Positions 905 through 62,404 of a DNA stretch of 64,000 nucleotides are shown here, in pieces (within the stretch, counting starts at the first letter, position 1; every line of letters begins with the position of its first letter). The notes below the pieces were generated by a model that saw nothing but the letters and a program-made list of their open reading frames with translations, had not been told where the DNA came from and ran no database searches. The DNA comes from an uncultured Rhodospirillaceae bacterium (GTDB lineage: Bacteria; Pseudomonadota; Alphaproteobacteria; Reyranellales; Reyranellaceae). The DNA is taken from NCBI GenBank assembly GCA_945952105.1, contig CAMFGZ010000009.1, positions 62,001-126,000 on the forward strand, read 5' to 3'. A program made the position numbers and the translations under genes.

Positions 905-1384
905 ATGGATGCCATCGACAGGAAGATCGTGGCGCTCCTCCAGGAGGATGCGAGCCTCTCGCTTGCGCAGATCGCCCATCGGGTTGGCCTGTCGCAAAGT
1001 CCCTGCTGGAAGCGCATCCAGCGGCTGGAGAAATCCGGCGTCATCCTGAAGCGGGTGGCGCTGATCTCGCCGGAATCGATCGGCGTGGGGCTCACCGTGT
1101 TCGTGTCGATCGAGACCGGCGATCATTCCTCGGCCTGGCTCTCCAAGTTCGCCAGCACCGTCACCGCCATGCCGGAGGTGATGGAGTTTCACCGCATGGC
1201 CGGCGACATCGACTATATGCTGCGCGTCGCCGTTCACGACATGCAGGCCTATGACGCCTTCTACAAGAAACTGATCGACACGATGCCGCTCAAGAACGTG
1301 ACCTCGCGCTTTTCGATGGAGAGGGTGAAGTCGACGACCGCCTATCCGATCGCGTCCGACCTCAAGCCCGTCCGTAAGCGCTAG
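905..1384 (+). CDS. Lrp/AsnC family transcriptional regulator
   Basis: A 159-residue protein of the usual Lrp length. It begins with the classic MDAIDRKIVALLQEDA start, followed by a helix-turn-helix (about residues 16-45, containing RVGLSQSPCWKRIQRLEKSGVI with SPCWKRI as recognition helix) and a C-terminal RAM ligand-binding domain (about 60-150) with the conserved M-E-F-H-RM-AGD-DY-LRV region. Proteins of this family bind amino acids or related metabolites and usually regulate a nearby transporter or catabolic gene. Its 3' end overlaps the convergent DoxX gene by 23 nt. The target is not evident from context. Confidence 0.93.
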   Translation: MDAIDRKIVALLQEDASLSLAQIAHRVGLSQSPCWKRIQRLEKSGVILKRVALISPESIGVGLTVFVSIETGDHSSAWLSKFASTVTAMPEVMEFHRMAGDIDYMLRVAVHDMQAYDAFYKKLIDTMPLKNVTSRFSMERVKSTTAYPIASDLKPVRKR

Positions 1385-1811
1385 CCGCGGGTCGTCCGGC
1401 GAGAAGCCGGTCGAGCGCGAGGCTGCCGGGGCCGAACTTGGCGAGATAAAGCAGCGCGACCGCCCAGACGCCGTGCGTGTCGAAGGCATTGGGATAGACG
1501 AAAATCTCGATCACCAGCGTCATGCCGAGCAGGGCCAGTGCGGCCGGGCGCGTGAAGAGGCCTAGGAAGAGCAGGATCGGCAGGCTGAGCTCCGCACCTG
1601 TCGCCATCCATGACGCTGCTTCAGGCGGAACGAGCGGCAGCCTGTACTCCTCGCGAAACAGCGCCAGCGTGGTCCCGCTGGCCCATCCCTCCAGCTTGAG
1701 CAGTCCTGATCGCAGGAAGATCGTGCCGATCGAGAGACGCGCCAGCGGCGCCATCAGTTCGTGCGGAATCCGCGCGAGGAGCATGTCGAGGCGTCGCAGC
1801 AGCACGATCAT
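1362..1811 (-). CDS. DoxX-family membrane protein of the bufferin cluster
   Basis: A 149-residue protein with four predicted membrane helices (about residues 18-36, 60-85, 86-105, 112-130). It has DoxX hallmarks such as RLSIGTIFLRSGLLKLEGW near the N-terminus and LLFLGLFTRPAALALLG in the middle. Its start overlaps the stop of the BufC gene by 4 nt (ATGA), so it is translationally coupled as the last gene of the bufABC operon. In known bufferin operons a DoxX protein (BufD) is a common membrane component. Its exact role is unclear; electron transfer or redox supply is possible. Its 3' end overlaps the convergent Lrp gene. Confidence 0.88.
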   Translation of the reverse strand: MIVLLRRLDMLLARIPHELMAPLARLSIGTIFLRSGLLKLEGWASGTTLALFREEYRLPLVPPEAASWMATGAELSLPILLFLGLFTRPAALALLGMTLVIEIFVYPNAFDTHGVWAVALLYLAKFGPGSLALDRLLAGRPAASAYGRA

Positions 1812-2605
1812 TCGGATATCCCCTTGAGCAAGCCGACGACGGCGCCGGCGCGGAAGAGCAGGGCGAGCGTCCGCGCAAGGTCGAGGCTGGCGGGCGCTTG
1901 GCCGATCGCCGTGCCGAGGGCGCGGCCCTCTCGGAGAGCTGCGATCAGAAGGTCGCTGCCGGGCGGCAGCACATTGACGAGAACGTCATCCTGCGGCCGT
2001 GTGATCAGGGCGATCTCGCCCGCATGGTCCGGCCCGATCCGCCGGGTTTCCGCGTCGAAGGTGTTGGTCGTCCAGATCGAGACGATGGGCCATGGCGAAG
2101 CGGCGACGGCAGTCGCGGGATGCAGTGTCAGCCGCGTGTCATGGAGGTCATCGGCCGCGAGGGTGGCGAGGCGATCGATCGCGACCGGAGTGGCATCCGC
2201 GGCGTGAAAGGCGCGATGGCGTGCCCATTCGAGGCGGGCGACGTCCGGCAGATAGGGCAGGTCAGCGGCGGGCTCGAAGACTTCCAGGAAAGACGCGAAC
2301 CCGCCTCCGTATTCGGCCAGGACGGGGGAACGGGGAGGGTGCCGCTCGACGAACACGAGAGCGGTCGCTTCGAAGAACTCTTCACCGACGAGACGTTCGA
2401 TGACGGTGAACTTCGCCTTCAGCGCCGCGACCAGGCTTGCCTTTACGTTGTTGCGATAGACGCTGAAGCGTCGTTCGCGCGAGGGGCCGGGCAGTCCGGC
2501 CACGGCAGCGGGCACCTGCAGGCGGGCCTGCAGCACGCCACGCCTGAAACTCTGTTGGGCGTGGGCGAGCGGGCGCATGTCAGGCGGCATGGGCACGCAA
2601 CTCAT
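1808..2605 (-). CDS. bufC: BufC/HvfC-like putative DNA-binding-domain protein (DUF2063)
   Basis: About 265 residues. The N-terminal DUF2063 domain (about residues 15-105) carries the family block RRFSVYRNNVKASLVAALKAKFTVIERLVG, followed by a second domain with PDVARLEWARHRAFHA. In bufferin and Hvf clusters this protein is the partner of the DUF692 enzyme and is thought to deliver or recognise the precursor peptide. Despite its Pfam name there is no proof that it binds DNA. The first ATG at 2605 overlaps the end of the upstream enzyme gene by 26 nt; in-frame ATGs at 2590 and 2578 are alternatives, and the one at 2578 sits one base beyond the upstream stop. It overlaps the DoxX gene by 4 nt. 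Confidence 0.9.
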   Translation of the reverse strand: MSCVPMPPDMRPLAHAQQSFRRGVLQARLQVPAAVAGLPGPSRERRFSVYRNNVKASLVAALKAKFTVIERLVGEEFFEATALVFVERHPPRSPVLAEYGGGFASFLEVFEPAADLPYLPDVARLEWARHRAFHAADATPVAIDRLATLAADDLHDTRLTLHPATAVAASPWPIVSIWTTNTFDAETRRIGPDHAGEIALITRPQDDVLVNVLPPGSDLLIAALREGRALGTAIGQAPASLDLARTLALLFRAGAVVGLLKGISE

Positions 2606-3434
2606 CGCCGTGGCGGAGCACCGATTCGGCCTGCGCTACCTCCGCCTCCAGGATAGGCCAGGCCGGCACGTCGGCGTCCCATTCGATGAGCGTCGGCAGG
2701 GGGCCCAGTCGCTCGATCAGCCGGCGATGGAGGTCCCACACTTCGGGCGGCACGGACCGGTCGTGCGTATCGACGAGAAGGCATCCGTCGCTGTCTTGCA
2801 GCACGGCGTGGCCGGCGAGGTGGATCTCGCCGACATGCTCGACCGGGAAAGCGTCGAGATAAGCCAGCGGATCGAAGCCACGATTGGCGGCGGATACGAC
2901 CACGTTGTTGACGTCCAGCAGCAGCCCGCAGCCGCTGCGCCGCGCAAGGGCGCCCAGGAACTCGGTCTCTTCCATCTCCTCGCCCTTGAAGCGCAGGTAG
3001 GTCGAGGGGTTCTCGATGAGGATTCGCCGGCCGAGGGCCGATTGCACTTCGTCGACATGCCGGATCACGAGCGCAAGCGTGGCGTCGTCGTAGGGAAGCG
3101 GCAGCAGATCGTTCAGGAAGACGCCGTCGTGCGTCGACCAGGCGAGATGCTCGGAGATCAAGAACGGCTGATAGCGCTCGGCCACCGCCCCTAGACGGCC
3201 GAGGTGGCCCGGCGTGAGGCCACCCGCCGATCCGATCGACAGACCGACGCCATGCAGGGATACCGGATAGAGAGCCCGCACGCGCTCGAGAAAGCGATGC
3301 GGCGGACCGCCGGCCCCCATGTAGTTCTCGGCATGCACCTCGAACCAGCCCACGTCGGGCCGGCCGTCGAGAATGTGCCGTTGATGCTGGGGCTTGAGCC
3401 CGGCACCCGCACGAGGGGAGCGATCCGCCGCCAT
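2580..3434 (-). CDS. bufB: BufB, multinuclear non-heme iron-dependent oxidase (MNIO, DUF692)
   Basis: A 284-residue TIM-barrel DUF692 protein. The metal-binding residues of MNIO enzymes are visible along the chain: FEVHAENY near residue 34, SLHGVGLSIGS, ISEHLAWS, LIENPSTYLRF, LLDVNN, EIHLAGHA, DTHDRSVP and LIEWD. Known members oxidise cysteines in a ribosomally made peptide, in bufferins to copper-binding oxazolone/thioamide groups. The reading frame is open farther upstream, but the ATG at 3434 was chosen because it follows an AAGGA ribosome-binding site and lies 11 nt after the bufA stop; upstream codons overlap bufA in another frame. It works in the cytoplasm on the BufA precursor together with BufC. 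Confidence 0.95.
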   Translation of the reverse strand: MAADRSPRAGAGLKPQHQRHILDGRPDVGWFEVHAENYMGAGGPPHRFLERVRALYPVSLHGVGLSIGSAGGLTPGHLGRLGAVAERYQPFLISEHLAWSTHDGVFLNDLLPLPYDDATLALVIRHVDEVQSALGRRILIENPSTYLRFKGEEMEETEFLGALARRSGCGLLLDVNNVVVSAANRGFDPLAYLDAFPVEHVGEIHLAGHAVLQDSDGCLLVDTHDRSVPPEVWDLHRRLIERLGPLPTLIEWDADVPAWPILEAEVAQAESVLRHGDELRAHAA

Positions 3435-3445
3435 GCCGCAGGTCC

Positions 3446-3736
3446 TTACATCGGCGCCAGGGTGCCCTTGCGCTTCATGCCGTCCTTCAGCGTGACTTCC
3501 ATGGTTCCACACGAACCCTTGGCGACGTACTTCCAGGCCTTGGCGTCGTAGTCGGCCTTGGACTGGCCGGCGCAGGAGTTGTTGCCGGTGGCGGCGCAGT
3601 CGTTCTTGCCGGCCATCGAAATGCCGTAGCACCTCTCCTTGTCGGCGTTGGCGGTCTGGGCGTTGGCGCCCGCAGACATCAGGGTCGCGGCGGCGACGGC
3701 GGCGGCGAGGGCTGCAGCGGTGGTGCGATTGCTCAT
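3446..3736 (-). CDS. bufA: BufA, bufferin precursor peptide (DUF2282), secreted, four cysteines
   Basis: A 96-residue precursor. Residues 1-26 are a Sec signal peptide ending ANA, followed by a mature part with exactly four cysteines (C36, C47, C55, C76) in the family context ERCYG, NDCAA, NSCAG and GSCGT. Such DUF2282 peptides are RiPPs: the MNIO enzyme modifies cysteines so that the exported product chelates copper. The ATG at 3736 was selected because an AAAGGA ribosome-binding site precedes it and the signal peptide begins there; the open frame farther upstream runs through the promoter. First gene of the bufA-bufB-bufC-doxX operon, with its own ECF-type promoter about 45 nt upstream. Confidence 0.95.
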   Translation of the reverse strand: MSNRTTAAALAAAVAAATLMSAGANAQTANADKERCYGISMAGKNDCAATGNNSCAGQSKADYDAKAWKYVAKGSCGTMEVTLKDGMKRKGTLAPM

Positions 3737-3782
3737 GGTCGGGTCCTTTGCTCGCGAACCAACATTGGCTCGCAAGGGGTCA

Positions 3783-3808
3783 TTCGGAGGCCCGGCCATC
3801 GCCGTTAC
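3783..3808 (-). promoter_or_regulatory. Predicted ECF (sigma-F-type) promoter of bufA
   Basis: On the minus strand GTAACG (complement 3803-3808) and CGAA (complement 3783-3786) are separated by exactly 16 nt. The divergent sigma-factor gene has the same arrangement (GTAATG-N16-CGAA). As I recall, Caulobacter sigma-F promoters have a GTAACC-like -35 and a CGAA -10 box with the same spacing. Expected transcription start is near 3776, leaving about 40 nt of leader before the bufA ATG. Confidence 0.75.
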
Positions 3809-3842
3809 AGGTCGGACGGTTTCTTTTTCGTGAGGAGGAGCT

Positions 3843-3868
3843 GTAATGTTCGGGCGCTCCCGCACGAA
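3843..3868 (+). promoter_or_regulatory. Predicted autoregulated ECF promoter of the sigma/anti-sigma operon
   Basis: GTAATG (3843-3848), a 16-nt spacer and CGAA (3865-3868) repeat the motif and spacing seen upstream of bufA on the other strand. The start of transcription would fall near 3875, only a few bases before the GTG start codon at 3880, so the mRNA may be almost leaderless. The matching boxes suggest the sigma factor transcribes its own gene. Confidence 0.65.
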
Positions 3869-3879
3869 CATGTGAATGA

Positions 3880-4437
3880 GTGAACTCGTTGGCCGAACCG
3901 GAAGATCTCTCCGCACTGATGCGGGCGGCCCGGAAGGGGGACGACGAGGCGTATCGGCGCCTGCTGGTCCTCGTCGCTGCCTGGCTGCGGCTCGTTGCTT
4001 CGCGGGGACTGGCGGCGGCGGGACGGCCGCGCGCGGATTGTGAGGATATCGTCCAGGAGACTTTGCTGGCCATGCACCTGAAGCGCGATACCTGGGATGA
4101 GACACAGCCGCTCCAGCCATGGCTGCGGGCGATCGCGCGCCACAAGCTGGTCGACCATCTGCGCCGCCGCGGCTTCACCGATCACATCGACATAGACGAT
4201 CATGCCGAAACCCTGGCCGCGCCCGAGGCGGCGGAAGAGGGAAGTGCGCTGGATGCACGACAGATGCTGGCGGGACTGCCGGATCGGCAGCGCCGTATCG
4301 TCGAAGGAATTTCCATCGAGGGACAGAGTGCCCGGGAAGTGGGGGTACGCCTGGGGCTGAGCGAGGGGGCCGTTCGCGTTGCGCTTCATCGCGCCCTTCG
4401 CTCCCTTGCTCACGCCTATCGCAAGGGCAGGACATGA
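3880..4437 (+). CDS. ECF-type sigma-70 family RNA polymerase sigma factor (SigF-like)
   Basis: A 185-residue ECF sigma factor. Region 2 lies at about residues 10-85 (DCEDIVQETLLAMHLKRDTWD...QPLQPWLRAIARHKLVDHLRRRG) and region 4 at about 120-180 (LAGLPDRQRRIVEGISIEGQSAREVGVRLGLSEGAVRVALHRALRSLA). The start is GTG at 3880, because an in-frame TGA lies directly upstream at 3877. Its ATGA overlap with the next gene couples it to an NrsF-like anti-sigma factor, and it is divergent from the bufferin operon, as in the Caulobacter sigma-F system that responds to metals. The promoter pair between the two units supports direct control of bufA and of itself. Confidence 0.93.
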   Translation: MNSLAEPEDLSALMRAARKGDDEAYRRLLVLVAAWLRLVASRGLAAAGRPRADCEDIVQETLLAMHLKRDTWDETQPLQPWLRAIARHKLVDHLRRRGFTDHIDIDDHAETLAAPEAAEEGSALDARQMLAGLPDRQRRIVEGISIEGQSAREVGVRLGLSEGAVRVALHRALRSLAHAYRKGRT

Positions 4438-5069
4438 AGACCGAGCAACTCGTCGCCTCCCTGGTCGCGGACCGTGCGCGTTCCTCCGCCCCGCTCGGAC
4501 GCTCCGTGGTGCGTGCCGTCGCGCTCGGCTCCCTGGTGTCCCTCGCGATCTTCGCCGTCGAGTTCGGTCCTCGCGTGGACCTGGCGGCCGCTTTCGCGAC
4601 ATGGCGTTTCGACCTCAAGCTCGTGCTGGTGCTGGTCGCCCTGTTCGCTGCCTCGGGCGCCTGCATCGCCCTGGCACGGCCGTTGGCCTCGAGGTCGTGG
4701 CGCCGGGGCGTCGCCGCGCTGGCGCTCGTCGCGCTGTCGGGTCTGGCGATCGAACTGATCATGGCGCCGTCCGGCACCTGGGGAACCCGGCTGGTCGGCA
4801 GCAATGCACTCGTCTGCCTGACCGCGATCCCGCTCTTTGCGCTCGCGCCGCTCGCGGGACTGCTGCTGGCGCTGCGCCGCGCGGCGCCGGCCTCTCCCGC
4901 GCTCGCCGGGGCAGCCTCGGGCGCGCTGGCCGCCGCCGCGGCGGCGACCCTCTACGCGTTTCATTGCTTCGACGACTCGCCGCTCTTCGTCCTTACCTGG
5001 TATCCGCTGGCGGCGGTGCCGGTGATCCTTCTCGGTGCTCTGCTGGGGCACCGTTTGCTGCGCTGGTAG
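4434..5069 (+). CDS. nrsF: NrsF-like membrane anti-sigma factor (DUF1109)
   Basis: A 211-residue DUF1109 protein that starts with a short cytoplasmic segment (MKTEQLVASLVAD), followed by six predicted membrane helices between about residues 28 and 208. NrsF proteins hold an ECF sigma factor at the inner membrane and release it on heavy-metal stress. Two cysteines, C128 and C178, sit 50 residues apart, the same spacing I recall for the sensing pair in Caulobacter NrsF (131 and 181); a third cysteine is at 77. The ATG at 4434 overlaps the sigma-factor stop by 4 nt. The gene ends 8 nt before the convergent LysR gene. Confidence 0.9.
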   Translation: MKTEQLVASLVADRARSSAPLGRSVVRAVALGSLVSLAIFAVEFGPRVDLAAAFATWRFDLKLVLVLVALFAASGACIALARPLASRSWRRGVAALALVALSGLAIELIMAPSGTWGTRLVGSNALVCLTAIPLFALAPLAGLLLALRRAAPASPALAGAASGALAAAAAATLYAFHCFDDSPLFVLTWYPLAAVPVILLGALLGHRLLRW

Positions 5070-61483: not shown

Positions 61484-62404
61484 ATGTTCACCCTCGCGCA
61501 CCTCTCCGACCCGCATCTGCCGATGCCGCAGGCGCGCGCGCTCGATCTCCTCGGCAAGCGAGCCACCGGCTACTACAACTGGTGGCGCAACCGCGTGCAG
61601 CTTCACCGCCCCGAAGCGCTGGCCGGGATCGTCGCCGACATCAAGGCGCGGAAGCCCGACCATATCGCGCTGACCGGCGACCTCGTTAACATCTCGCTGC
61701 CCGATGAATTCGCCCGCGCCTCGACGTGGCTGGAAGGGCTGGGCGCGCCCGATGAAGTCACGGTCGTTCCCGGCAATCACGACGTCTATGTCGCCACCCT
61801 GTGGCGCGAGGGGCTCGGTCGCTGGGGCGCCTACATGGCGGGTGACGGGCAGCCGCCCGCGGCCGACTTCGAGGTCTTCCCGATGCTGCGCCGGCGCGGG
61901 CCGGTCGCGCTGGTCGGGCTGAACAGCGGCCTGCCGAAGCCGCCCTTGCTGGCGACCGGCACGCTGGGCGACGCCCAGATCGCCGCCACCGGGAAGTTGC
62001 TCGCCGAACTGGGACGCGAGGGTCTCTGCCGCGTGGTGATGATCCATCATCCGCCGCTCACCACCGAGTCGCGCTTCAAGCGCCTGACCGACGCTGCCGC
62101 CTTCCAGGCGATGATCCGCCGTGTCGGCTGCGAGATCGTGCTGCACGGCCACAACCATCGCAGCGAGGTCGCGCGCATCGCGGGACCGCAGGGGCCGGTG
62201 CCGGTGGTCGGCGTCACCTCCGCATCGGCGGCGCCCGGCAGCAAGTACGGCCGCGCGCGCTACCACCTGATCGGCATCGAGCGCGAGATCACGGGATGGC
62301 GCATCACCGTCGACATTCGCGCTCTCAAGGCCGACCTCACGGGCTGCGAGCCCGACGGCCGGTTGGTGTTCAACAGCGGCGCGCCGGCCGCGCTGGCAGC
62401 TTGA
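61484..62404 (+). CDS. Metallophosphoesterase (calcineurin-like) inside the ceramide locus
   Basis: A 306-residue calcineurin-like phosphoesterase. Metal-ligand motifs: LAHLSDPHLPMP (Asp, His), ALTGDLVNI (Asp), VVPGNHDVYV (Asn, His), RVVMIHHPPL (His) and VLHGHNHRSEV (Gly-His-x-His). No signal peptide. It lies 12 nt after spt and 7 nt before the bCerS-like gene, so it is probably co-expressed with ceramide synthesis. A UDP-2,3-diacylglucosamine-, lipid-phosphate- or cAMP-phosphodiesterase activity is possible; a step on a phosphorylated sphingoid intermediate is my inference. Confidence 0.9.
   Translation: MFTLAHLSDPHLPMPQARALDLLGKRATGYYNWWRNRVQLHRPEALAGIVADIKARKPDHIALTGDLVNISLPDEFARASTWLEGLGAPDEVTVVPGNHDVYVATLWREGLGRWGAYMAGDGQPPAADFEVFPMLRRRGPVALVGLNSGLPKPPLLATGTLGDAQIAATGKLLAELGREGLCRVVMIHHPPLTTESRFKRLTDAAAFQAMIRRVGCEIVLHGHNHRSEVARIAGPQGPVPVVGVTSASAAPGSKYGRARYHLIGIEREITGWRITVDIRALKADLTGCEPDGRLVFNSGAPAALAA

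Follow-up and report, generated by a model that had tools for sequence, protein, structure and literature searches.

The closest described systems are the loci of Caulobacter vibrioides (crescentus) and Sinorhizobium meliloti, in both of which sigma dependence has been demonstrated (PMC3511200, PMC6180224). The sigma-F regulon of Caulobacter belongs to the small number of gene sets induced by copper whatever the condition, and mutation of sigF makes the cells copper-sensitive. Besides its own locus, CC3252–CC3257 (PMC3511200, PMC8224329), in which sigF–nrsF is paired with the Buf1 genes CC3254–CC3257, Caulobacter sigma-F controls the DUF2282–DUF692–DUF2063 operon CC2907–2905 and MsrP CC2748. 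Thiooxazoles have been assigned in Caulobacter bufferin 1, and bufferin chelates Cu(I)/Cu(II) (PMC12452194). Buf1 clusters, but not Buf2 clusters, are listed as including sigma and NrsF genes (Antoine et al., PMC12452194). In the S. meliloti locus rpoE7–ecfR7/SMb20527–20532 (PMC6180224) the sigma pair adjoins an operon, SMb20530–20527, with DUF692 and DUF2063 genes; we read the first and last genes of this operon, both annotated as hypothetical, as bufA and doxX. The gig operons of Legionella and Cupriavidus, studied for their response to gold and copper, also have bufferin genes in common with the locus reported here. An ECF16 sigma factor, a DUF1109 anti-sigma factor and the cysteine pair C129/C179 are likewise shared by Bradyrhizobium EcfF–OsrA and Brucella B0022/B0023, which are linked to oxidant defence.

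The window, i.e. the whole stretch of DNA that was analysed, covers positions 62001–126000 of contig 9, is 64 kb long and contains a locus with the same gene set, gene order and divergent layout as CC3252–CC3257. The promoter motif and the two NrsF cysteines of the Caulobacter sigF–nrsF locus are also shared, and no substantial difference in gene content from S. meliloti is apparent as far as the table in PMC6180224 shows. The features of the locus are as follows.

1362..1811, minus strand: doxX, membrane protein (Pfam DoxX, 61 bits)
1808..2605, minus strand: bufC, DUF2063 partner protein, 265 aa (Pfam DUF2063, 84.2 bits)
2580..3434, minus strand: bufB, MNIO (DUF692) maturase, 284 aa (Pfam, 340.7 bits; NCBIfam NF050167 MNIO_BufB, 375 bits, cut-off 310)
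3446..3736, minus strand: bufA, 96-aa Buf1 precursor (Pfam DUF2282, 75.9 bits, cut-off 22.4)
3745..3778, minus strand: stable hairpin predicted at the 5′ end of the bufA mRNA, with its end beside the ribosome-binding site (fold z −3.61)
3783..3809, minus strand: putative sigma-F promoter of bufABC-doxX, TGTAAC-N17-CGAA (= TGTAACG-N16-CGAA)
3842..3868, plus strand: putative sigma-F promoter of sigF-nrsF, TGTAAT-N17-CGAA (= TGTAATG-N16-CGAA)
3889..4437, plus strand: sigF, ECF16-type sigma factor (NCBIfam PRK12512, 225.8 bits, cut-off 198)
4434..5069, plus strand: nrsF, 211-aa membrane anti-sigma factor of the DUF1109/NrsF family (Pfam NrsF, 155.9 bits)

The four minus-strand genes are closely packed: bufA and bufB are separated by 11 nt in the ORF listing, bufB and bufC overlap by 26 nt, and bufC and doxX overlap in ATGA. 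BufA has cysteines at positions 36, 47, 55 and 76 and an N-terminus that was read by eye as a Sec signal, with likely cleavage at ANA-QT (26/27); it scores above the cut-off in no NCBIfam model. In an alignment BufB retains the conserved His/Glu/Asp/Asn positions of the MNIO family. BufC and DoxX fall under the cut-offs of the NCBIfam models for HvfC and HvfX, respectively, both of which were built for oxazolin relatives, and BufC gives an HvfC-like RRE match, also below the NCBIfam cut-off. A four-cysteine DUF2282 peptide with a Sec signal, a BufB-type MNIO, a DUF2063 partner and the optional DoxX, all in one operon, characterize a Buf1 cluster, and the locus is on its sequence a Buf1-type bufferin biosynthesis operon. 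An earlier note on this DNA had placed the DUF2282, DUF692, DUF2063 and DoxX genes in one minus-strand operon, with which the positions and HMM matches agree; HMM comparison of families confirmed all six genes of the locus (Pfam/NCBIfam). From the rule for central and outer cysteines in bufferin modification (PMC12452194), the central Cys47 and Cys55 would be expected to become thiooxazoles and Cys36 and Cys76 to form a disulphide. The calculated monoisotopic mass of the mature peptide starting at Q27 is 7365.4, which two thiooxazoles would lower to 7357.4 and the additional disulphide to 7355.4. The expected destination of BufA is the periplasm and not the outside of the cell, so that its description as secreted is better replaced by periplasmic export with no release from the cell.

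On the plus strand sigF and nrsF overlap in ATGA, which together with the family matches bears out the description of an ECF sigma factor translationally coupled to a DUF1109 anti-sigma factor and divergent from the operon. For sigF the probable start is TTG 3889, which is conserved in the congeners apart from one that has GTG there. The frame is also open from GTG 3880, but with a −10 box that ends at 3868 a start at this codon would leave the gene almost leaderless. Several transmembrane segments are indicated by the hydropathy of the encoded NrsF (the DUF1109/NrsF class has six). Its cysteines are located at positions 77, 128 and 178, of which C128 is kept in 37 of 39 homologues and C178 in 35 of 39. 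Their counterparts among described sensor cysteines are C131/C181 in Caulobacter NrsF and C129/C179 in OsrA. Replacement of the matching pair increases sigma-F activity in Caulobacter (PMC3511200), and in OsrA it alters binding and the H2O2 response. The protein scores 77 bits against the NCBIfam equivalog NF042994 (cut-off 300) and so lies outside NCBI's narrow set, which strictly speaking makes the label NrsF less secure but does not touch its membership of the Pfam family. It is encoded by the only NrsF gene in the genome. Two congener genomes (G005 and G024) have NrsF genes, one of them with five matches, and lack a DUF2282 gene; there the NrsF-type switch serves a purpose other than bufferin.

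The two promoters were compared with the Caulobacter sigma-F site GTAACC-N16-CGAA (Kohler et al., PMC3511200) and with the ECF16 consensus tGTAACc-N16-CGAA quoted in PMC3420878. Relative to the published motif the bufA side (GTAACG) has one mismatch and the sigF side (GTAATG) has two. With two mismatches allowed the motif occurs 29 times in the 64 kb window against 29.5 expected, and it therefore counts only through position and conservation. Across ten congeners the spacer between the divergent genes is variable except for the two hexamers and the two CGAA boxes, which show little or no change. Among bufferin loci of named genomes the motif precedes bufA in 16 of the 21 that have a sigma gene linked to them versus eight of the 57 that have none (Fisher P = 4e-7 for the 78 loci, an optimistic value as the loci are related). 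The earlier note's appeal to sigma-F/NrsF control in Caulobacter is thus well placed: the layout is the same and both promoters bear the published sigma-F motif.

A genome-wide search with one mismatch gave 34 matches versus 25 for a reversed control pattern. None of the 17 matches inspected clearly lies upstream of a metal or redox gene, and for this reason no additional regulon member is claimed. MsrP was considered as a member and rejected, the three Oxidored_molyb homologues in the genome having no upstream site. As judged from these searches, the sigma-F regulon seems to be limited to sigF-nrsF and bufABC-doxX; in the same way RpoE7 of S. meliloti has seven target genes with TGTAAC-N17-CGAA promoters and is as self-contained as the window locus.

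A second complete bufABC operon was found on contig 8 of the same 5.46-Mb genome at about 127.0–128.8 kb (L006:6968–8836), with Pfam scores of 87.6 (DUF2282), 327 (MNIO) and 77.6 bits (DUF2063). It has no doxX, no adjoining sigma gene and no sigma-F motif; its two neighbours, one on each side, are nucleotidyltransferase-like and DksA/TraR-like. Operons of this second type occur in most congeners, and the sequence in front of them, read by eye, mostly carries a TATA-like −10 box instead. The earlier note had described the whole regulon as self-contained in less than 4 kb. This appears to hold for the sigma-F regulon, for which the genome search gave no third convincing site, but not for the bufferin system, which exceeds the 4 kb locus because the second operon sits on another contig. 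The second bufABC and the MsrP homologue both lack the motif, unlike their counterparts in Caulobacter. The genus consequently lends itself to comparing, in a simple setting, bufferins that are induced by stress with others that do not depend on sigma-F.

That genus is almost certainly Reyranella, since the BufB of the window is closest to that of R. aquatilis (83% identical) and the R. aquatilis promoter is identical to that of a genome classed in the same genus as the window (loci L027 and L097). Reyranella are soil and water bacteria. Homologous loci with this layout exist in roughly ten species of the genus as well as several other genera, and the arrangement is therefore not due to chance. 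The locus is real but not new in kind, the arrangement having been published for Caulobacter and Sinorhizobium; Reyranella can now be counted among the bacteria that have such a locus under sigma-F control.

We consider it very likely that the locus is a Buf1 bufferin cluster under its own ECF16 sigma-F/NrsF switch, with copper as the most likely signal. Around the observed genes, conserved promoters and sensor cysteines, analogy with the described systems would place a copper function that operates as follows. In unstressed cells NrsF in the inner membrane would hold sigma-F. Excess metal, most likely copper, would be sensed at C128/C178 and sigma-F would be freed, transcribing sigF-nrsF and bufA-bufB-bufC-doxX from the two TGTAAC/T-N17-CGAA promoters. 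BufC would then present BufA to BufB, an iron enzyme that would convert Cys47 and Cys55 to thiooxazoles, and the modified BufA would be exported by Sec and bind copper in the periplasm. Against a copper role, the Cupriavidus gig operon is without effect on copper resistance, and in other species related NrsF-type pairs respond to H2O2, HOCl, chromate or cadmium.

Such responses bear on two other readings of the switch. It might be tuned to oxidants (H2O2, HOCl or singlet oxygen), with the peptide guarding against oxidant damage or against metal loosened by it. EcfF–OsrA and B0022/B0023, which have the same two cysteines, respond to H2O2 or HOCl, but the main targets named for EcfF are methionine sulfoxide reductases, and no bufferin genes are among those named. 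Moreover, the MsrP homologue in the window genome is without a sigma-F site, and the buf-linked pair of Caulobacter is copper-induced, its targets being uninduced by agents that generate reactive oxygen species (PMC3511200); an oxidant switch is accordingly improbable. A cluster that deals chiefly with chromate, cadmium, gold or silver, copper being secondary, is more improbable again: chromium and cadmium do induce the Caulobacter sigma-F genes (PMC3511200), and the homologous Cupriavidus gig operon is gold-induced (PMC12452194), but in Caulobacter mutation of sigF brings sensitivity to copper, and none to chromium or cadmium (PMC3511200), and the ions that bufferin is reported to chelate are Cu(I) and Cu(II) (PMC12452194). 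We give marginally less credence still to the view that the second, sigma-free bufABC does the standing copper work and that the window operon is redundant or decaying. Congeners with the second type do outnumber those with the window type, but all window genes are intact, and the retention of promoter motifs and of the four cysteines across ten congeners speaks for selection on the window operon.

The copper-responsive Buf1 reading might be extended by the structured leader of bufA. In ten related congeners the bufA leaders have a mean fold z of −2.0 versus 0.0 for the sigF leaders of the same loci, and bufA leaders with the sigma-F motif beyond the genus average −1.7 (n = 20); the relatedness of the congeners makes the P value of the comparison optimistic. 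A comparable hairpin was seen in loci L020–L024, L027, L036, L037, L177, L122 and L152. Covariation leaves the structure unproven, as the observed base-pair covariation equals that of shuffled leaders. No mention of the hairpin was found in the bufferin and sigma-F literature cited here, in which no dedicated search was made. In many single folds an anti-Shine–Dalgarno pyrimidine stretch pairs with the ribosome-binding site, in differing registers. Tentatively, the hairpin could be a second, post-transcriptional control of bufferin, by mRNA protection or translation, common to Alphaproteobacteria and some Betaproteobacteria; we regard this as possible rather than probable, and the structured bufA leader as a small testable lead.
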